Under the pieces are notes generated by a model. It saw only the letters and a list, made by a program, of their open reading frames with translations, searched no databases and was not told the origin of the DNA. Positions 53,766-64,000 of a DNA stretch of 64,000 bases are shown piece after piece. Each line of letters opens with the position of its first letter. Within the stretch, counting starts at the first letter, position 1. This DNA comes from Armatimonadota bacterium (GTDB taxonomy: Bacteria > Sysuimicrobiota > Sysuimicrobiia > Sysuimicrobiales > Humicultoraceae): assembly GCA_031081715.1 (NCBI GenBank), contig JAVHMA010000006.1, positions 1-64,000 of the forward strand. Reading direction: 5' to 3'. Made by a program: the position numbers and the translations under genes.

Positions 53766-53790
53766 AATCTACGACGACGACGCAACAGAC

Positions 53791-53926
53791 AACAGCCATC
53801 GCCGAATCTCCGCCGCGCGGCGGGGAGCGGGGGAACCAAGCCGTCGGGGCGCATCTCGCGAGCCGCGAGTAGGGTAGTCTCTCGACCCGAGCCCGTCAGC
53901 TAACCCCGCAGGCAGCGAGAGAAGGT
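53791..53926 (+). promoter_or_regulatory. Cyclic di-AMP riboswitch (ydaO-yuaA leader)
   Basis: The aptamer shows the conserved ydaO blocks in order: ATCGCCGAA (53798-53806), GGGGGAACC, GGGGCGCATC, the hairpin CTCGCG-AGC-CGCGAG, AGGGTAG, and the diagnostic block at 53892-53913 (CCCGTCAGCTAACC then CGCAGGC). This RNA class binds cyclic di-AMP and normally turns genes off when the messenger, and thus turgor, is high. The 3' strand runs into GAGAAGGT (53919-53926), which can pair with part of the following terminator. It leads the operon treT, mscS-like, brkB-like, otsA-otsB and CBS gene. Confidence 0.93.
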
Positions 53927-53942
53927 GGCCGAGGTCCATCCG

Positions 53943-53973
53943 GCCCGGAGACCTTCTCCGGGCTGTTGATTTC
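53943..53973 (+). terminator. Intrinsic terminator of the c-di-AMP riboswitch
   Basis: GCCCGGAGA (53943-53951) and TCTCCGGGC (53955-53963) form a perfect 9-bp stem followed by TGTTGATTTCT. ACCTTCTC within it (53951-53958) is the exact complement of GAGAAGGT at 53919-53926 at the aptamer end. The two structures are therefore mutually exclusive, the expected expression platform of a genetic OFF switch. It ends about 28 bases before the treT ATG. Confidence 0.8.
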
Positions 53974-54000
53974 TCGCCGGAGGGGAGGCGCGCGACCCGG

Positions 54001-55272
54001 ATGCTGAACCTCGTCGGCGTCAAGCGCAAGGCGCTGCGGTCCTACGAACCGCTGACCGACGACGACCTGATCGCCGAGATCCGCGAGCTGGCCAGCCGGT
54101 TGCGCGGCCTGCGGGTCCTCCACCTGAACTCCACGGCCTACGGTGGGGGGGTGGCCGAGCTGCTCGTGTCCCTGGTGGCCCTCGAGAAGGACGTCGGCCT
54201 CGACGTCGAGTGGCGCACCATGGGCGAGGACGAGGCGTTCTTCAAGGTCACCAAGCGCATCCACAACGCCCTGCAGGGGCAGCCCTACGACATGACCGAT
54301 GAGGAGCGCGCGACCTACCTGCGGTGCAACGAGGCCGCGGCCGGGGCGCTGAACGGACAGTACGACGCGGTCATCGTCCACGACCCGCAGCCCGCCGCGG
54401 TCCGGCACGTCGCCGGGCGGCGCGGCGCGCGGTGGATCTGGCGGTGCCACATCGACACTTCCGAACCCGACGCCGGGGTGTGGGCCTTCGTGGAGCCCTA
54501 CGTGGAGGAGCACGACGCGGCCGTGTTCACCATGGCTCAGTTCGTGCCGCCCGGCCTGGCCGTGTCGCGCCTTGAGTTCATCCCGCCCGCGATCGACCCG
54601 CTGTCGTCGAAGAACCGAGACCTGCCCGACGATCTGGCCCGGGCGCTCGTCGGCGAGTTCGGCGTGGACGCCGAGCGGCCGCTCATGGTCCAGGTCGCGC
54701 GGTTCGACCCGTGGAAGGACCCGGCCGGGGTGATCCAGGCCTACCGCCTGGTCAAGGCGGAACTGCCGGAGGTACAGCTCGCCCTCATCGGCTCGATGGC
54801 CGGCGACGACCCCGAGGCCTGGGAGATCTACCGCGGCATCACCGAGACCGACCGCGACGACGACCTGTTCGTGTTCACGAACCTGGTCGGGGTCGGCAGC
54901 CTGGAGGTGAACTGCTTCCAGCGCGCCAGCGACGTGGTGATCCAGAAGTCGCTGCGCGAGGGGTTCGGGCTGGCGGTCTCGGAGGGGTTGTGGAAGCGGC
55001 GGCCGGTGATCGGCGGCGCGGCCGGCGGCATCCCGCTGCAGCTCCAGGACGGGGTGGGCGGCTACCTGGTCACCACGGTCGAGCAGTGCGCGGAGCGGGC
55101 TCTCTACCTCCTCCGCCACCCCGAGGAGGCCCGCCGCGTTGCCGAGGCGGGCTATCAGGTGGTCCGGCGGCGCTTCCTGATGCCGCGGCTGCTCCGGGAC
55201 GAGCTGCGGCTGCTCTGCGACGTCACGACGGGCACGAGCGCCCGGAGGCCCGAGGAGCGAGTCGTGCGGTGA
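54001..55272 (+). CDS. treT: Trehalose glycosyltransferring synthase
   Basis: A 423-residue GT4-family protein. VLHLNSTAYGGGVAELL near residue 39 is the TreT-type start of the acceptor domain. The donor domain has VQVARFDPWKDPAG near residue 230 and the E-x7-E motif in SLREGFGLAVSEGLWK, then PVIGGAAGGIPLQ. TreT makes trehalose from NDP-glucose plus free glucose, reversibly, in the cytoplasm. AGGGGAGG lies 12 bases before the ATG, slightly long spacing. It is the first gene after the c-di-AMP riboswitch, and the stop overlaps the channel gene (GTGA). Confidence 0.92.
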   Translation: MLNLVGVKRKALRSYEPLTDDDLIAEIRELASRLRGLRVLHLNSTAYGGGVAELLVSLVALEKDVGLDVEWRTMGEDEAFFKVTKRIHNALQGQPYDMTDEERATYLRCNEAAAGALNGQYDAVIVHDPQPAAVRHVAGRRGARWIWRCHIDTSEPDAGVWAFVEPYVEEHDAAVFTMAQFVPPGLAVSRLEFIPPAIDPLSSKNRDLPDDLARALVGEFGVDAERPLMVQVARFDPWKDPAGVIQAYRLVKAELPEVQLALIGSMAGDDPEAWEIYRGITETDRDDDLFVFTNLVGVGSLEVNCFQRASDVVIQKSLREGFGLAVSEGLWKRRPVIGGAAGGIPLQLQDGVGGYLVTTVEQCAERALYLLRHPEEARRVAEAGYQVVRRRFLMPRLLRDELRLLCDVTTGTSARRPEERVVR

Positions 55273-56336
55273 CGGTTCTCGACCTGGTCTACTACGGCAA
55301 TACCGTGCGGGCCTGGCTCGTGGCGGCGGCCGTGGCCGCGGGCGTGCTCGCGGGGCTGCGCGTGGGGCAGGCCGTCCTGCTGCGCCGGCTGGCCGCCGCG
55401 GATCGCACACCGACCGGGCTCGACGAGCTGACCGCGGACCTGGTCAGACGCACCCGGCTGCTGTTCCTGCTCCTCCTCGCCCTCTCGGCCGGGGCCTACG
55501 CGCTCGCGCTGCCGCCCCGGGCGGACCGCCTGCTCGCGGTCGCGGTGATGCTCGCCGTCCTGCTGCAGGTCGGCGCGTGGGGCAACGCCCTCATCGGCTT
55601 CCTGCTGGCGCGGCACGTGCGCCTGCGCCTCGAGCAGGACGCGGCCGCGGCCACCACGATGGCCGCCTTCGGGTTCCTGGGCCGGCTCGCGCTGTGGACG
55701 CTGCTGTTCTTCGTCGCGCTCGGGAACCTCGGGGTCAACATCACGGCGCTCGTGGCGGGCCTGGGCGTGGGCGGCATCGCGGTGGCGCTCGCGGTCCAGA
55801 ACATCCTGGGCGACCTCTTCGCCTCGTTCACGATCGTGCTGGACAAACCGTTCGTCATCGGCGACTTCATCGTCATCGGCGAGCACGCGGGCACCGTCGA
55901 GCACATCGGGCTCAAGACCACCCGCGTGCGCAGCCTCTCGGGCGAACAGATCATCTTCGCGAACAACGACCTGCTGTCCAGCCGGGTGCGCAACTTCAAG
56001 CGCATGTACGAACGCCGTGTGGTCTTCACCATCGGGGTCACGTACCAGACGCCCCTGGCGAAGGTCGAGGCCATACCCGGGATGCTGCGGGAGATCGTCG
56101 AGGCCCAGCCGCTGGCACGCTTCGACCGCGCGCACTTCAAGGCGTACGGCGACTTCGCGCTCGTCTTCGAGGTCGTCTACTTCGTCCGCGATCCGGCGTT
56201 CAACGTCTACATGGACGTCCAGCAGGCGATCAACCTCGAGATTGGCCGGCGCTTCGCCGCCCAGGGCGTCGAGTTCGCGTACCCAACCCAGACGGTCTAC
56301 CTCGCCCGGAGCGCGGCGGCGGGGTCGGCGTCCTGA
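55269..56336 (+). CDS. MscS-family mechanosensitive ion channel
   Basis: A 355-residue protein. Three to four N-terminal membrane segments precede the pore-lining helix LGVGGIAVALAVQNILGDLFASF. The MscS beta domain (DKPFVIGDFIVIGEHAGTVEHIGLKTTRVRSLSGE) and a cytoplasmic alpha/beta portion follow. It opens under membrane tension to release solutes during hypo-osmotic shock. The GTG start overlaps treT, and the TGA overlaps the start of the next gene (TGATG). Co-control with trehalose synthesis by c-di-AMP gives an osmotic-adaptation unit. Confidence 0.92.
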   Translation: MTVLDLVYYGNTVRAWLVAAAVAAGVLAGLRVGQAVLLRRLAAADRTPTGLDELTADLVRRTRLLFLLLLALSAGAYALALPPRADRLLAVAVMLAVLLQVGAWGNALIGFLLARHVRLRLEQDAAAATTMAAFGFLGRLALWTLLFFVALGNLGVNITALVAGLGVGGIAVALAVQNILGDLFASFTIVLDKPFVIGDFIVIGEHAGTVEHIGLKTTRVRSLSGEQIIFANNDLLSSRVRNFKRMYERRVVFTIGVTYQTPLAKVEAIPGMLREIVEAQPLARFDRAHFKAYGDFALVFEVVYFVRDPAFNVYMDVQQAINLEIGRRFAAQGVEFAYPTQTVYLARSAAAGSAS

Positions 56337-57184
56337 TGGGGGGGCGGGTGTGGATCGCGACGGTGGTCACCTTCGCCCGGTGCCTGGTGACGCACGAAGT
56401 GCCGCTCCTGGCGGCCGCGATCGCCTACACGGCGGTCCTGTCGTTCTTCCCGCTCCTGGTCGGCGTCGTGGCGCTGCTGGCACGGTGGGTCGAGGAACCG
56501 CGGGCACAGCAGGCCGTGGTGGAGGCGCTACGCCCCTACCTGCCGCCGGGCGCGGTGAGCCTGGTCTGGGGCACCCTCGACGCGGCGATCCGGGCGCGTG
56601 GCGCCGCGAGCGTGGTGGCGACCGTGGTGTTGTTCTGGACCGCCACCGCGGCGGCCAGCACGATTCGGCACAGCCTGAACCGTGTGCTGGGCGCGGCCCG
56701 GCCGCGACCGTTCTGGCGGCGCAAGGTGATCGAGCTCGGGCTGGTGACGCTCGCCGGAGGGCTCATCAGCCTCTCGCTGATCGCGAGCGCGGCGCTTGCG
56801 GCGCTGGGGGCGGTACCCGCGCTGGCAGACGCCGTGAGAGCCCTGCGGGTGAGCCCGATGGCCACCACGCTGGCGCGGGTGAGCCCGTGGGTGCTGTCGG
56901 TCGCGGCGTTCGCGGTGGTCTACGCTTGGCTGCCCAACGTGCGCCTGGCGTGGCGCACGCTGGCGGTCGGAACGCTGACCGCCGCCGCGCTCTTCGAGGC
57001 GACGAAGCAGGCGTTCTTCTGGTACCTGCGCGTGCTCGCGGACTACCCGCTCGTCTACAGCCACCTGGCGGGCGTGGTCGTGCTGATGATCTGGATCTAC
57101 CTCGCGGCGTTCGTGCTGCTGATGGGGGCTGAGGTCATGCGACAGCTCGAGGACCGAAGGCAGGTGACGGCCGATGTCGGTTGA
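56336..57184 (+). CDS. YihY/BrkB family inner-membrane protein
   Basis: A 282-residue integral membrane protein of the YihY/virulence-factor BrkB family. An amphipathic N-terminus leads into LLAAAIAYTAVLSFFPLLVG, the family signature, and about six membrane helices. SHLAGVVVLMIWIYLAAFVLLMGAEV near the end is the conserved terminal helix pair. Function is unsettled; roles in envelope integrity or transport have been proposed. It sits between a mechanosensitive channel and trehalose-6-phosphate synthase in a c-di-AMP-controlled operon, which favours a link with osmotic stress. Confidence 0.87.
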   Translation: MGGRVWIATVVTFARCLVTHEVPLLAAAIAYTAVLSFFPLLVGVVALLARWVEEPRAQQAVVEALRPYLPPGAVSLVWGTLDAAIRARGAASVVATVVLFWTATAAASTIRHSLNRVLGAARPRPFWRRKVIELGLVTLAGGLISLSLIASAALAALGAVPALADAVRALRVSPMATTLARVSPWVLSVAAFAVVYAWLPNVRLAWRTLAVGTLTAAALFEATKQAFFWYLRVLADYPLVYSHLAGVVVLMIWIYLAAFVLLMGAEVMRQLEDRRQVTADVG

Positions 57185-59486
57185 GCACCGCCACGACCCG
57201 CAGCCGTGCGGCCTGCCGGCCGACCGGCAGTTCATCGTGGTCAGCAACCGCGAGCCCTACGTCCACCGGCACGGCCCCGCGGGCGTCGAGGTCGAGCGGC
57301 CGGCGGGTGGGCTGGTGGCGGCGCTGGACCCGGTCATGCAGGCGGTGCGCGGTACCTGGATCGCCTGGGGCAGCGGCGACGCCGACTTCGAGGTCGCAGA
57401 CGCCGCCGGCCGGGTGATGGTGCCGCCGGGGGAGGCCCGGTACGTGCTGCGGCGGCTGAGGCTCTCGCGCGACGAGGTGGACGGGTTCTACAACGGTTAC
57501 GCGAACCAGGCGCTGTGGCCACTCTGCCACATGGCGATGGAGCACGCCCGCTTCCGACGGCGCGCGTGGGAGGTCTACCAGGCGGTCAACGCACGGTTCG
57601 CCGACGCCGTGGCCGAGGAGGCGCGCGGCGACGCGTTCGTCTGGATCCAGGACTACCACCTGGCCCGGTGCCCGCGCGCGTTGCGCCGCGCCCGGCCCGA
57701 CCTGTTCCTGATGCACTTCTGGCACATTCCCTGGCCCGCGTGGGACGTCTTCCGCGCCTGCCCGCAGAGCGCGGATTTGGTGGACGGCCTGCTCGCGAAC
57801 GACCTGGTGGTCTTCCAGCACCCCCGGCACGCGCAGCACTTCATCGAGTGCGCGGAACGCGAGGTCGGCGCGCGCGCCGACGCCGAGCGCGAGGGCGTCG
57901 AGTACGACGGCCGGATGGTGCGCGTGGCCGCGATTCCGATCAGCGTGGACTTCGCGACGTGGGACGCGACGAGCCGCTCGCGCGCCGCACAGCGGTGGAT
58001 GACGCGGCTGCGGGGCCGGCTGGGCGCCCGCGACCGCCTGCTGGCGGTCAGCGTGGACCGGCTGGACTACACGAAGGGCATTCCCGAGCGGCTGCGCGCC
58101 ATCGACCTGTTCTTCCGGCGGTTCCCGCAGTTCCGCTCGCGCGTGGTCTTCGTGCAGAAGTGCGCGCCCAGCCGGACCGGCATCCGAGCCTACCGTGAGC
58201 TCCAGCAGCGCGTGGAGGCCGAGATCGCCCGGCTCAACGCGACGTACGGCACCCCCGGCTGGCAACCGGTCGTCTACCTGCCCCGGCCGCTGCCGCCGCC
58301 GGCGATGGCGGCGCTGTACCGCATGGCCGACCTCTGCATCGTGAGCTCGCTGGCCGACGGCATGAACCTGGTCGCCAAGGAGTTCGTCGCCTGCCAGGTG
58401 GATGGCCGCGGCGTGCTCGCCCTCTCGGAGCTGGCCGGCGCCCGCGACGAGCTGCCGTGGGCGCTGCCGGTCAACCCGTACGACGCCGAGGGGTGCGCGG
58501 AAATCATCGCCGCGGGCCTGCGGATGCCGGCCGAGGAGCGCGGCGAGCGCATGGCGCACCTGCGGCGCGCGGTGGAGGAGCACGACATCGGCCGGTGGTT
58601 GCGCGAGCACCTGCGGCTGGCGGCCCGGCTGGCCGCGGGCCGCGCGCCGACCGAGTGGCTGCTCGACCGCACCATGCCGCTGCGGCAGCGGCTCGACGCC
58701 GGCCGTGCGCTGGCGCTGCTGCTCGACTTCGACGGGACGCTGGCACGCCTGGTGGACGACCCCGCGCGCGCCGAGATCCCCGCCGCGGTCCGCGCGTCGC
58801 TGGCACGCATCGCCCGCGCCGACGGCACGCTCGTGGCGGTCATCAGCGGGCGGGCGCTCGGCGACATCCGTGCCCGCGTCGGCCTCTACGGTCTGGTCTA
58901 CGCCGGCAATCACGGGCTGGAGATGAGCGGCCCGGGGTGGAACTGGTCGCACAAGGGCGCCGTCGGCGCGCGTGAGGCGCTCGCGGCTGCTCTGACGGCG
59001 CTGCGCGCGCGGCTACGCCGGGTCCCGGGCGTGCTGATCGAGGACAAAGGGTACAGCGCCAGTGTGCACTACCGCCGCACCCCGGCCCCGCGCGTCGAGG
59101 AGGTCCGTGTGGCCGTGATGGAGGAGGTCGCCCGGGTTGCTGGCGCGCGCCTCGCCGTGCGCCGCGGCAAGCAGGTGCTGGAGATCCGGCCGGCCGTGGA
59201 CTGGGACAAGGGGGCCGCGGCGCGCTGGTTGCTCGTGCGCACCTACGGCGACGGGTGGCCCGAGCGCGCGGCCGTCGTCTACGTCGGTGACGACCGCACC
59301 GACGAGGACGCCTTCGTGGCGCTGGGCGACGACGCCGTCACGGTGCGGGTCGGCGCCGGCAGCGCGCCCACCGCGGCCCGGTACGCCGTGCGCAGCGTGG
59401 AGGAGGTACACCGCTTCCTCGAGCTCCTGGAGACCTGGATGCGGCCCGCGGTGGCGGCGGGAGGCGCCAGTGCTGACGGTCGCTGA
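57174..59486 (+). CDS. otsA: Trehalose-6-phosphate synthase/trehalose-6-phosphate phosphatase fusion
   Basis: A 770-residue OtsA-OtsB fusion. Residues about 15-490 are a GT20 synthase: VVSNREPYV, then PAGGLVAALDPV, FVWIQDYHLAR, SVDRLDYTKGI and SLADGMNLVAKEF. Residues about 515-750 are a HAD phosphatase: LLLDFDGTLA (nucleophile Asp), VAVISGR, then YVGDDRTDEDAF. It makes trehalose-6-phosphate from NDP-glucose and glucose-6-phosphate and dephosphorylates it to trehalose. The ATG overlaps the YihY/BrkB stop by 11 bp. A GT20 relative making glucosylglycerol phosphate cannot be fully excluded, but the OtsB half favours trehalose. Confidence 0.93.
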   Translation: MSVEHRHDPQPCGLPADRQFIVVSNREPYVHRHGPAGVEVERPAGGLVAALDPVMQAVRGTWIAWGSGDADFEVADAAGRVMVPPGEARYVLRRLRLSRDEVDGFYNGYANQALWPLCHMAMEHARFRRRAWEVYQAVNARFADAVAEEARGDAFVWIQDYHLARCPRALRRARPDLFLMHFWHIPWPAWDVFRACPQSADLVDGLLANDLVVFQHPRHAQHFIECAEREVGARADAEREGVEYDGRMVRVAAIPISVDFATWDATSRSRAAQRWMTRLRGRLGARDRLLAVSVDRLDYTKGIPERLRAIDLFFRRFPQFRSRVVFVQKCAPSRTGIRAYRELQQRVEAEIARLNATYGTPGWQPVVYLPRPLPPPAMAALYRMADLCIVSSLADGMNLVAKEFVACQVDGRGVLALSELAGARDELPWALPVNPYDAEGCAEIIAAGLRMPAEERGERMAHLRRAVEEHDIGRWLREHLRLAARLAAGRAPTEWLLDRTMPLRQRLDAGRALALLLDFDGTLARLVDDPARAEIPAAVRASLARIARADGTLVAVISGRALGDIRARVGLYGLVYAGNHGLEMSGPGWNWSHKGAVGAREALAAALTALRARLRRVPGVLIEDKGYSASVHYRRTPAPRVEEVRVAVMEEVARVAGARLAVRRGKQVLEIRPAVDWDKGAAARWLLVRTYGDGWPERAAVVYVGDDRTDEDAFVALGDDAVTVRVGAGSAPTAARYAVRSVEEVHRFLELLETWMRPAVAAGGASADGR

Positions 59487-60546
59487 CGTCATGAGCCGGC
59501 AGCCGGTGGCCGTCCACGCCGCGGCCACCGTGGCCGACGCCCTGCGCGTGATGCGCGCGCACGGCATCTCCAGTGTGCTCGTGCCGCCGCTGGCGGGCTC
59601 GCCCGAGTACGGCATCGTCACGATGCAGGACGTCCTGGCCAAGGTGGTCCGCGCCGGTGCCGACGCCCGGACGGTCCGCCTGGGCGACGTGATGACCTGG
59701 CGCCTCGTGACCGCCGAGCCGGGCTGGACGGTCCGCCGGGCCGCGGAGGCCATGGCGGACGCGCGGGTGCGCCGCCTGCCGGTGACCGACGGTCGCGGCA
59801 TCGTGGGGCTCGTCAGCGACACCGACATTTTCACGTCGCTCGTGCCGCGCGAGGAGTGGGGCCACGTGCGGCGGGTGCGCAAGGAACGGGCGCTTCGGCG
59901 GGCGGCGGCGGCCGGGCCCGCGGCAGCGGTCGCCGACCTGATGTCGAGCCCGGTGCTCACCATCGCGGGCGACGCGCCGGTGCGCGACGCGGTCGCCAAG
60001 ATGGTGGCCGCGGGCATCAGCAGCCTGCTCGTGACCGCGCCCGGCGGCCCCCCGGCGGCGATCGTCACCAAGCGCGACGTCGTCACCAAGGCCGTCGCGC
60101 ACGGCCGGCCGATCGAGGCCACGCGCGTCGAGGCCCTGGCGTCGGGCCCGCTCCGCACCGTCGCGGCCGAGGCGACCGTGGAGGCGTGCTCGGCCGAGAT
60201 GGCCGCCGCGCGCGTGCGCCGCCTGCCCGTCACCCGCGAGGGCCAAATCGTCGGGATCGTGAGCGACAGCGACATCCTGGCCGCGGTGGCCGGGGGCCGC
60301 TGGGTCGGGAAGGGCACGGGCCCCACCGCGGCGATCGCCGCGGACGTCTTGCGCGCGCCGCCCGTGGCGATGCAGGCAAGCACGGCCGGGGCGCTGGCGC
60401 CGGAGACCTCGCTATGGGAGTGCGCCGCCCGGCTCGCGGACGCCGGCACCCGGGAGCTTCCGGTCGTCCAGGACGGCCAGGTCATCGGGGTCGTTGGCGA
60501 GGAGGACATCGTCCGCGCGCTCGCCGAGCGCGGAGGGCACGACTAG
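59470..60546 (+). CDS. Multi-CBS-domain protein
   Basis: A 358-residue soluble protein made only of CBS motifs. Four clear ones begin at VADVMSRQPVAV, LGDVMTWRLVTA, VADLMSSPVLTI and VEALASGPLRTV. A divergent fifth follows, AADVLRAPPVAM to VVGEEDIVRALAE. CBS pairs bind adenine nucleotides (AMP, ATP, SAM, c-di-AMP in some cases). The GTG start lies 6 bases after GGGAGG and overlaps otsA by 17 bp; an upstream reading from 59137 is in the wrong frame for otsA and lacks CBS character. As the last gene of a c-di-AMP-riboswitch operon, it may be an energy or second-messenger sensor. Its partner is unknown. Confidence 0.85.
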   Translation: MLTVADVMSRQPVAVHAAATVADALRVMRAHGISSVLVPPLAGSPEYGIVTMQDVLAKVVRAGADARTVRLGDVMTWRLVTAEPGWTVRRAAEAMADARVRRLPVTDGRGIVGLVSDTDIFTSLVPREEWGHVRRVRKERALRRAAAAGPAAAVADLMSSPVLTIAGDAPVRDAVAKMVAAGISSLLVTAPGGPPAAIVTKRDVVTKAVAHGRPIEATRVEALASGPLRTVAAEATVEACSAEMAAARVRRLPVTREGQIVGIVSDSDILAAVAGGRWVGKGTGPTAAIAADVLRAPPVAMQASTAGALAPETSLWECAARLADAGTRELPVVQDGQVIGVVGEEDIVRALAERGGHD

Positions 60547-60589: not shown

Positions 60590-60618
60590 TTGACAACCGC
60601 GGCGCGGTTCCGTAAGGT
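60590..60618 (+). promoter_or_regulatory. Promoter of gltB leader
   Basis: TTGACA (60590-60595) and TAAGGT (60613-60618) are separated by exactly 17 bases, the strongest sigma-70-type promoter in the window. Transcription should begin around 60625, giving a leader of about 280 bases. Confidence 0.75.
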
Positions 60619-60689
60619 AGCACGCAACGGTGGACCGTGGGCCGCCGCGACGCGGCCGGATGGGATCGGGGTCCGCCGCGTCAGCGTCC

Positions 60690-60800
60690 TGAGGAAGTGC
60701 GCCTAGGGTTCCGCGGCCGCACCCGCGGCCGGTCTGGACCGAGCGGCGCAGGCGGAAACCCAGTCCGCTACACCGTCGGGAGAGAAGCCCGAGGGAGAGG
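60690..60800 (+). promoter_or_regulatory. ykkC-class riboswitch (likely ppGpp subtype by context) upstream of gltB
   Basis: The leader holds the conserved ykkC blocks: CTAGGGTTCCG (60703-60713), GGTCTGGACCGAG (60731-60743), TACACC, and CGGGAGAGAAGCCCGAGGGAGA (shown in two parts at 60777-60791 and 60792-60798). P1 is TGCGCC (60698-60703) with GGCGCA (60745-60750). P2 and a GCGGA/TCCGC hairpin are also visible. The ykkC scaffold covers guanidine-I, ppGpp, PRPP and ADP-type riboswitches. A glutamate-synthase target and no guanidine exporter or purine gene favour the ppGpp subtype, but the subtype was not resolved base by base. Confidence 0.8.
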
Positions 60801-60888
60801 TTCCTCGCACCGGAGGTCGCCTCCGGATGCACACCGGGGAGCCCATCGCCCGGGCTTCTCGCATTTCCCGCCGGTCCGCCCGGCGGGA
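60782..60888 (+). promoter_or_regulatory. Expression platform of the gltB riboswitch
   Basis: GAGAAGCCCG (60782-60791), part of the aptamer core, is perfectly complementary to CGGGCTTCTC (60851-60860), giving a 10-bp competing stem. Between them is the hairpin CCGGAGG-TCG-CCTCCGG (60810-60826). After them comes a perfect 9-bp hairpin TCCCGCCGG/CCGGCGGGA (60866-60888). The ribosome site GGTGATC (60894-60900) follows. Ligand binding and the competing stem cannot coexist; whether the output is transcriptional or translational is unclear, as no good U-tract is seen. Confidence 0.6.
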
Positions 60889-60905
60889 CAGCGGGTGATC
60901 GTCTG

Positions 60906-63900
60906 GTGATCGCGCGTACGCCGCCGGCCCCCCCGGCGACCTGGGACCGTGAGCGCGACGCGTGCGGCGTCGGCTTCGTCGCCGACCGCCGTGGCCGGCA
61001 CAGCCACGCCGTGCTCCGCTGTGCGCTCACCGCGGTCGCCAGCATGAGCCACCGCGGCGCGCTCGCCGCCGACGCGAAGACCGGCGACGGCGCCGGGGTC
61101 CTGACCCAGATCCCCTACACCCTGCTGCGCCGCGACCTGCGGCTGCGCACGGCCAACGCCGACCTCGGTGTCGGCATGGTCTTCCTGCCCCGCGCCACCG
61201 ACGCCGCGCGCGCCTCCTGGACGCTTGTCGCCACCACGCTCGAGGAGCACGGCGTGCCAGTGCTCGGCTGGCGGCTCGTGCCCACCGACCCCACGGCGCT
61301 CGGCGACCACGCGCGCCGCACCCAGCCGGAGATCGCGCAGGTGGTCGTGGGCCGGCCGCGCGGCGCGGACGACGAGGCCTACGAGCGGGCGCTCTACCGC
61401 GCGCGGCGCGCGATCGAACGCCGCGCCGCCGCCGAGGCCCTGGACCTCTACCTACCCTCGCTCTCGCACGCCACCGTGGTCTACAAGGGGCTGTTCGTCT
61501 CGCCACAGCTGCCGAAGTTCTACCCCGACCTGGAGCACCCAGCGTTCGAGACCGCGATCGCGGTCTTCCACCAGCGCTACAGCACCAACACCTTTCCGTC
61601 CTGGGCGCTCGCGCAGCCTTTCCGGTTGCTGGCGCACAACGGCGAGATCAACACGCTGCAGGGCAACGTCACCTGGATGGCCGCGCGCGAGGCGCTGCTG
61701 CGCTCGCCGCACTGGCCCGAGGGGCTCGACGACCTGACCCCCGTGATCCAGCCCGGCGGCAGCGACAGCGCGATGCTGGACAACGTGCTCGAGCTGCTGC
61801 GGCGGGGCGGCCGGTCGCTGCTGCACGCCATGCTCATGCTGGTCCCGAGTGCCTGGGAGGGCCTGGGCGACCTGCCCGAGCTGGTCCGCGCGTTCTTCGA
61901 GTACCATGCCTGCCTGATGGAGCCGTGGGACGGCCCGGCCGCGCTGGCGTTCTCCGATGGCCGCTACGCCGCGGCCGCGCTCGACCGGAACGGCCTGCGC
62001 CCGGCGCGCTACGTCGTCACGCGGGACGGCCTGGTGGTCGTGGCCTCGGAAGCCGGGGTGGTCGACGTGCCGGCCGAGCGCGTGGTCGAGAAAGGCCGGC
62101 TCGGTCCGGGCCAGGTGCTCGCGGTGGACACGCACAAGGGCGTCGTTCTGCACGACGACGAGGTCAAGATGCTCTGCGCCGCGCAGCGGCCCTACGGCAC
62201 CTGGGTGGAGCGGGAGCTGATCCGACTCGGCCGGCCGGCCGGCGAGACCCCTGCGCCGCCGCCAGACCTGGTCAGACGGCAGCGAGTCTTCGGCTACACC
62301 GGCGAGGACCTCCGCCGGGTCCTGCGGCCCATGGTGGACGAGGGCAAGGACCCCGTCTTCTCGATGGGTGACGACACGCCGCCCGCGGCGCTGGCAACGC
62401 GCCCCCGCGGGCTCGCCGCGTACTTCCGGCAGCGCTTCGCGCAGGTCACGAACCCGCCGATCGACCCGCTGCGCGAGCGGCTCGTCATGTCGCTGACCGG
62501 CTACCTCGGCCCGCGGCCGAACCTGCTCGAGGAAACCCCGGCGCATGCCCGGCTGGTGGCTCTGCCCTCACCCGTGCTCACTGCCGGAATGGTCGAGGCG
62601 ATCCGGAGGGACGCGCCGTTCCCGGTGACAACGCTGGCGACGCTGTTCGACGCCGGCGGGGGACCGGGGGCGATGCGCCGCGCGCTCGACGACCTAGTGC
62701 GCGCCGCGTGCGAGGCGGTGCGCGCGGGAACCGGCGTCCTGTTGCTCACCGACCGGGACGTGACGCCCGACCGCGCGCCGATCCCCATGCTGCTCGCCAC
62801 CTCGGCGGTGCACCACGGCCTGATCCGCGCCGGGCTGCGCGGCCGGACCGGGTTGCTCGTGGAGTCGGGCGAGGCGCGGGACATCCACCACATCGCCGCG
62901 CTCATCGGGTACGGCGCGAGCGGTGTGCACGCCTACCTGGCCCTCGCAAGCATCGCGGCCGACGCCGCCGACGAGCGCGAGGCGCGGGGGCGCGTGGAGC
63001 GGTGGCGCGAGGCGGTCGAGGCCGGGCTGCTCAAGATCATGTCGAAGATGGGGATCAGCGCGCTGGCGGCCTACCACGGCGCGCAGGTCTTCGAGGCCGT
63101 GGGCCTGGCCCGCGACCTGGTGGACACCTACTTCCCCGGGACGCCCTCGCGCGTGGGCGGCGTGGGCCCCGACGCGCTCGCCGCGGAGGTGCTGGCGCGC
63201 CACGCCGAGGCGTACCGCACCAGCGGTCCGATCGTCGAGACCGGATGGATCCGATACCAGCGGGGCGGCGAGTACCACGCCTACAACCCGGACGTCGTCC
63301 GGGCGATCCACCGGATCGCCGGAATCCGACGCGCGGACGCCCGCGACGACGACGCGGCGGCCGACGCCAGGGGCGCGCTGGCCGCCCTGGTGGAAGGCCG
63401 GCCCGCCACCGCGCTCCGCGACCTGCTGGAGTTCGTCCCGGGCACCCCGGTGCCGCTTGAGGAGGTCGAGCCGGCCTCGCAGATCGTGGCGCGCTTCGTC
63501 ATCTCGGCGATGTCCCACGGCGCCCTCTCGCTCGAGGCGCACACGACACTCGCGATCGCGGCCAACCGCATCGGCGCGCGCTCGAACTCGGGCGAGGGCG
63601 GTGAGGATCCCGCGCGCTACGTGCGCCGGCCCACCGGCGACTGGCCGAACAGCGCCATCAAGCAGATCGCCTCGGCGCGCTTCGGGGTGACGCCGGCCTA
63701 CGTCCGGTCGGCGCGCGAGCTCGAGATCAAGATGGCGCAGGGGAGCAAGCCCGGCGAGGGCGGCCAGCTCCCGGGGCACAAGGTGAGCGCGGAGATCGCG
63801 CGCATCCGGCGCTCGCAGCCCGGCATCACGCTCATCTCGCCGCCGCCGCACCACGACATCTACAGCATCGAGGACCTCGCGCAGCTCATCTATGACCTCA

Positions 63901-64000
63901 AGGTCGTGCACCCCGAGGCGCGCGTGGCGGTGAAGCTCGTCGCGGAGACCGGCGTGGGCACGATCGCCGCGGGCGTCGCAAAGGGCTTCGCCGACACGGT
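60906..64000 (+). CDS. gltB: Glutamate synthase large subunit (3' end outside window)
   Basis: The first 1031 residues of a roughly 1500-residue protein. Translation starts at GTG, 5 bases after GGTGATC. A 19-residue propeptide precedes Cys20 in RDACGVGFVAD, the Ntn glutaminase nucleophile exposed by processing. MSHRGA, QRYSTNTFPSW and AHNGEINTLQGN are glutaminase-domain motifs. The central domain covers about 430-780. The FMN barrel begins near residue 865 (ISAMSHGALSLEAH, then RSNSGEGGED). It converts 2-oxoglutarate and glutamine to two glutamates with the small subunit GltD, expected beyond the window. A ykkC-class leader controls it. Confidence 0.96.
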   Translation, partial: MIARTPPAPPATWDRERDACGVGFVADRRGRHSHAVLRCALTAVASMSHRGALAADAKTGDGAGVLTQIPYTLLRRDLRLRTANADLGVGMVFLPRATDAARASWTLVATTLEEHGVPVLGWRLVPTDPTALGDHARRTQPEIAQVVVGRPRGADDEAYERALYRARRAIERRAAAEALDLYLPSLSHATVVYKGLFVSPQLPKFYPDLEHPAFETAIAVFHQRYSTNTFPSWALAQPFRLLAHNGEINTLQGNVTWMAAREALLRSPHWPEGLDDLTPVIQPGGSDSAMLDNVLELLRRGGRSLLHAMLMLVPSAWEGLGDLPELVRAFFEYHACLMEPWDGPAALAFSDGRYAAAALDRNGLRPARYVVTRDGLVVVASEAGVVDVPAERVVEKGRLGPGQVLAVDTHKGVVLHDDEVKMLCAAQRPYGTWVERELIRLGRPAGETPAPPPDLVRRQRVFGYTGEDLRRVLRPMVDEGKDPVFSMGDDTPPAALATRPRGLAAYFRQRFAQVTNPPIDPLRERLVMSLTGYLGPRPNLLEETPAHARLVALPSPVLTAGMVEAIRRDAPFPVTTLATLFDAGGGPGAMRRALDDLVRAACEAVRAGTGVLLLTDRDVTPDRAPIPMLLATSAVHHGLIRAGLRGRTGLLVESGEARDIHHIAALIGYGASGVHAYLALASIAADAADEREARGRVERWREAVEAGLLKIMSKMGISALAAYHGAQVFEAVGLARDLVDTYFPGTPSRVGGVGPDALAAEVLARHAEAYRTSGPIVETGWIRYQRGGEYHAYNPDVVRAIHRIAGIRRADARDDDAAADARGALAALVEGRPATALRDLLEFVPGTPVPLEEVEPASQIVARFVISAMSHGALSLEAHTTLAIAANRIGARSNSGEGGEDPARYVRRPTGDWPNSAIKQIASARFGVTPAYVRSARELEIKMAQGSKPGEGGQLPGHKVSAEIARIRRSQPGITLISPPPHHDIYSIEDLAQLIYDLKVVHPEARVAVKLVAETGVGTIAAGVAKGFADT

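Follow-up and report, generated by a model that had tools for sequence, protein, structure and literature searches.

The window, as the whole stretch of 64,000 nucleotides analysed here will be called, ends within gltB, the gene of the glutamate synthase large subunit. Its product, 1503 amino acids long in the contig, matches NF008730 with 1698 bits (cut-off 1047), and its closest named full-length relatives come from Chloroflexi MAGs, with 54% identity in the best segment. The gene is preceded by a leader that comprises a likely promoter, an aptamer of the ykkC class with its P0 helix, and a long stem incompatible with the aptamer (Table 1). The promoter had been described as strong from the letters alone. 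This holds for its -35 box, identical to the consensus in 6/6 positions, but not for the -10 box, which matches TATAAT in 3/6 and is rejected by the consensus scan; accordingly, no canonical promoter was called at the gltB leader. The layout TTGACA-17/18-TANNNT is nonetheless found before 17/17 ilv leaders and before the closest gltB leader, against a chance expectation, from shuffles, of well under 1% per leader on average; of the gltB leaders checked, the remaining 19 lack it. Downstream of the promoter, at 60649-60682, there is a hairpin, GACGCGGC...GCCGCGTC, which precedes the aptamer.

Further upstream, the Rfam scan of the window detects a c-di-AMP riboswitch at 53790-53926 (80.7 bits). 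The sequence-only reading had noticed such a switch about 7 kb from the one on gltB; it is real, and the distance is 6.8 kb. The region 53790-60546 holds this switch and then a run of genes that look related to osmotic stress (a TreT-type trehalose synthase, an MscS channel, a BrkB/YihY protein, an OtsA-OtsB fusion and a CBS-domain protein). The run stops 44 bases short of the gltB promoter, and no terminator was called between the two. A joint c-di-AMP/ppGpp control unit was considered and rejected: at the gathering threshold there is no Rfam match in the 16 kb around and upstream of gltB in G005, the closest gltB relative, or in the 10.5 kb around and upstream of gltB in G001, and the 6.8-kb spacing therefore looks accidental.

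Table 1. Elements of the gltB leader, with positions in the window
Feature	Position	Strand	Basis or remark
Likely promoter: TTGACA 60590-60595, 17 bp, TAAGGT 60613-60618	60590-60618	+	Sequence; layout in relatives
ykkC subtype 2a (ppGpp-type) aptamer	60691-60806	+	P0, P1, P2, P3; RF00442, model R1 and MFE fold
P0 helix, 5' strand GAGGAA	60691-60696	+	Pairs with 60801-60806
Position 49 = C (A in guanidine-I)	60744	+	Marker from PMC6031431
C75 equivalent	60771	+	Within ACACC at 60770-60774; PMC6031431
GAG after P3	60791-60793	+	Bulged G of PRPP aptamers absent or A instead; one-base gap versus PRPP model
P0 helix, 3' strand TTCCTC	60801-60806	+	Pairs with 60691-60696
OFF stem, 5' arm: P3 hairpin, P3 3' strand, P0 3' strand	60778-60808	+	Duplex with 60834-60870
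OFF stem, terminal hairpin CCGGAGGTCGCCTCCGG	60810-60826	+	Fold
OFF stem, 3' arm, with moderately T-rich tail TTCTCGCATTTC after GGGC	60834-60870	+	Probable intrinsic terminator
Possible Shine-Dalgarno GGTGA	60894-60898	+	From sequence; outside OFF stem
gltB, glutamate synthase large subunit	60906-64000, past window end	+	GTG start; NF008730

The presence of a ykkC-class leader on gltB, as originally proposed, is well established, since the aptamer stands far above chance with two models. In an open-threshold Rfam scan of the window, RF00442 matches positions 60692-60799 (+) over the full length of the model (59.3 bits, E 3.4e-10). This score does not reach the curated cut-off of the family, 63 bits, and the scan at curated thresholds misses the aptamer, reporting the c-di-AMP switch and a tRNA only. 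R1, a ppGpp model made exclusively from Clostridia ppGpp-type sequences, gives a single match in the 64 kb (63.8 bits, E 3e-15). The landmarks quoted for the class were all found: CTAGGGTTCCG begins at 60703, GGTCTGGACCGAG occupies 60731-60743 and GGGAGAGAAGCCCG occupies 60778-60791, together with GAGAAGCCCG and CGGGCTTCTC, described below. The minimum free energy fold of 60690-60807 is the four-way junction of the ykkC class. When 40 sequences from the host's order are compared, 90.2% of the aptamer structure is paired, versus 85.8% in shuffles, and 16 pairs of the aptamer plus P0 are changed on both sides, versus 8.3 in shuffles (0/500). For P0 itself, 97.5% of cells are paired in 40 same-order relatives and three pairs are changed on both sides. 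The family name, on the contrary, does not decide the ligand, because RF00442 alone matches meaningfully, with neither a ppGpp nor a PRPP family among the open-threshold results; in practice, this model picks up all ykkC subtypes.

The subtypes can be told apart by a few marker bases (PMC6031431). Guanidine-I RNAs have an A at position 46, while the ppGpp and PRPP types have a pyrimidine at position 49 and are the only ones provided with P0. G96 is conserved in more than 97% of the PRPP types, and in the ppGpp types, which are variable after P3, this position is never G or is absent; in the solved structure, the guanine of ppGpp has C75 as its pairing partner. Among the Clostridia controls, those linked to SugE carry A49, those before purC or purL have CCC-A-G, and those linked to natA have C49 and vary after P3, as published for ppGpp types. 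The window aptamer has the A5 and G6 of the P0 region (60696-60697), keeps C75, and shows an A or a gap at position 96, where the alignment is ambiguous by a single base. C49 and GA after P3, with no G at position 96, are found in 42/42 tabulated same-order sequences. The comparison with the ppGpp class was made by these published markers and the Clostridia control loci.

Three subtype models were built from the Clostridia control loci, the guanidine set including in addition one Bacillus-type sequence, and they score the window aptamer at 63.8 (ppGpp), 63.1 (PRPP) and 33.2 bits (guanidine). The scoring by subtype that had been suggested as a check therefore excludes guanidine by about 30 bits but fails to split ppGpp from PRPP, probably because the two models contain only 5-7 sequences each and the classes are nearly identical. 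Since both models score equally, the call between these two ligands rests on the missing G of the S-turn and on the gene context.

Regarding the gene context, aptamer matches are present in 33/43 genomes of the host's order and in 0/18 genomes outside it. The genes downstream of 43 same-order aptamers are gltB in 23 cases (G001 included), ilvB or related TPP enzymes in 18, and citramalate synthase or a close relative in two, with no purine gene among them. An aptamer lies directly upstream of 22 of the 26 same-order gltB genes that have an intact 5' end; a degenerate remnant is visible at the gltB of G016, and no remnant was seen upstream of those of G004, G018 and G021. In one same-order locus (L046, 1223-3034) a ppGpp-type aptamer and a T-box precede a divergent TPP enzyme, 24% identical to IlvB, and in L007 and L024 a ppGpp-type aptamer precedes a similarly divergent one (25-26% identity). 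The genome of the window itself contains a second ppGpp-type aptamer followed by a T-box (G000 C26, L033, 5800-6250), before ilvB-ilvC-ilvN-leuA-leuC-leuD. Both elements are below their Rfam cut-offs, the aptamer with 56.6 bits (cut-off 63) and the T-box with 51 bits and E 2.7e-10 (cut-off 93). A ppGpp riboswitch in tandem with a T-box is a predicted AND gate (PMC9481103), and this second copy has the same layout, ppGpp type first and T-box second, while the gltB leader differs from the tandem leaders in having no T-box. RelA/SpoT is also encoded in this genome. The ppGpp subtype predicted at the outset is thus supported by the marker positions, P0, the gene contexts across the order, RelA/SpoT and the T-box tandem.

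The alternative ligands have to be weighed against this evidence. A PRPP riboswitch (subtype 2b) has a near-identical consensus, shares P0, C49 and C75 with the ppGpp type, and scores less than 1 bit apart; moreover, the G at 60793 is invariant among relatives and could in principle act as G96. In PRPP riboswitches, however, a bulged G96 pairs with C75 and the genes are those of purine metabolism, and the gltB leader shows neither feature. Compared with the purC/purL controls (L159, L160 and L163), its S-turn lacks one base, and the alignment to the PRPP model shows a one-base gap there, although the placement of this gap is ambiguous and cmsearch can leave a G facing G96. In addition, nearly all relatives pair C81 with G95 and U80 with A96 in the ordinary way, no purine gene follows any same-order match, and the T-box tandem is a known ppGpp arrangement, all of which makes a PRPP switch on gltB very unlikely. 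There is a comparably slim chance that the same-order aptamers, given their missing P3 bulge and the invariant G equivalent to 60793, have changed their specificity, still within the alarmone family, or also respond to PRPP; if true, glutamate synthase would read a different or a mixed signal.

The remaining members of the class can practically be discarded. Guanidine-I, suggested by the name of the only meaningfully matching Rfam family, shares with the window the core ykkC fold and the conserved CTAGGGTTCCG, but this identity was rejected in view of position 49 (C replaces the A of A46/A49), the additional and covarying P0, a guanidine model score of 33.2 versus 63.8 bits, and a downstream gene that is neither a guanidine transporter nor a carboxylase. 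Equally negligible is subtype 2c, which senses nucleoside diphosphates. The 2c-like controls also carry CCC-G-(A/C)-G after P3, yet those before a NUDIX gene (L210) and thiC (L168) have G49, U5 and G7 where the window has C49, A5 and U7, and they score 25-32 bits with R1, compared with 63.8 for the window; neither a NUDIX/HAD gene nor the 2c marker bases occur at the window locus, where gltB lies downstream. The thiC control deserves a separate comment. In the Clostridia genome G121 (L168/L154), a 2c-like RNA at 209-314 of L168 precedes thiC, and no TPP riboswitch was found. As G230 (L210) has a near-identical RNA before a NUDIX hydrolase, the thiC-leader RNA, which had looked new at first, probably belongs to subtype 2c; thiC would be an unusual gene for a switch of the nucleoside-diphosphate type.

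How the aptamer might control gltB is suggested by the sequence that follows it. The competing 10-bp stem described originally, GAGAAGCCCG (60782-60791) with CGGGCTTCTC (60851-60860), is present, but it is the core of a longer stem, into which the entire 3' half of the aptamer is drawn. The aptamer fold and this OFF stem are mutually exclusive. The duplex between its two arms has -47.2 kcal/mol, and the fold of 60780-60905 has z = -5.0. In relatives, native arms beat swapped arms in 31/33 cases (mean -30.8 versus -26.9 kcal/mol). At one loop position, left unpaired by the aptamer fold, the pairs made with the downstream arm are GC, CG, TA and AT. This covarying stem, common to the relatives, supports an ON switch that would work by antitermination. 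The tail after the stem, TTCTCGCATTTC, has 6 T of 12 in a broken run; it is poorer in T than the tails of many relatives, whose T runs at this site are better, and still within their range. No terminator was called in the leader by the pattern scan. The end of the OFF stem is overlapped by a 9-bp GC-rich hairpin at 60867-60887 (inside CCCGCCGGTCCGCCCGGCGGG), which lies just 5' of the gltB start.

From these observations we infer which ligand is sensed, that the switch acts in the ON direction, and that the step under control is termination and not translation. As long as ppGpp is absent, the downstream arm would capture the P3 loop and the 3' strands of P3 and P0, which make up the 3' half of the aptamer, giving a long terminator-like hairpin that would stop transcription 5' of gltB. 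Amino acid starvation would raise ppGpp, the guanine of which would pair with C75 while its pyrophosphates bind around P0; with P0 and P3 locked in this way, the OFF hairpin would be blocked and glutamate synthase made. This ON mechanism is extrapolated from a homologue, the ppGpp riboswitch of Clostridiales, an ON antitermination switch in which ppGpp stabilizes the closing helix against the propagation of the terminator (PMC10687018); the strand shared by aptamer and OFF stem is observed at gltB. The same ppGpp aptamer might instead use the OFF hairpin to act on translation or on the access of Rho, as the interrupted T tract and the lack of a called canonical terminator would allow; nevertheless, the putative Shine-Dalgarno is outside the OFF stem and the T runs of the relatives are better at the same place, so this variant seems rather unlikely. 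The gltB leader is predicted, with high confidence, to be a ppGpp riboswitch (ykkC subtype 2a) that would turn the gene ON through control of termination.

Subtype 2a is known to include RNAs before glutamate synthases (PMC5912903), and ppGpp riboswitches activate glutamate synthesis (PMC7266159). As its target has been published, the switch of the window adds to the known ppGpp class and does not define a new one. It has in common with this class the fold, P0, C49, C75 and the lack of G96 (PMC5912903; PMC6031431; PMC10687018), the association with amino acid genes including glutamate synthase, and a strand common to aptamer and terminator. It departs from it in its high GC content, a score below the Rfam cut-off, a P3 lower stem without bulge, and a weaker T tract.

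In summary, the RNA in the gltB leader is a switch of a known type, most likely sensing ppGpp and turning gltB on. The single ykkC model of Rfam, named guanidine-I and with a cut-off of 63 bits, misses such switches and would misname them. With their recognition, the range of an already known RNA sensor for the starvation alarmone widens to a poorly known order of high-GC bacteria, mostly represented by genomes only, in which gltB and the operons for branched-chain amino acids form one conserved regulon under RNA control.
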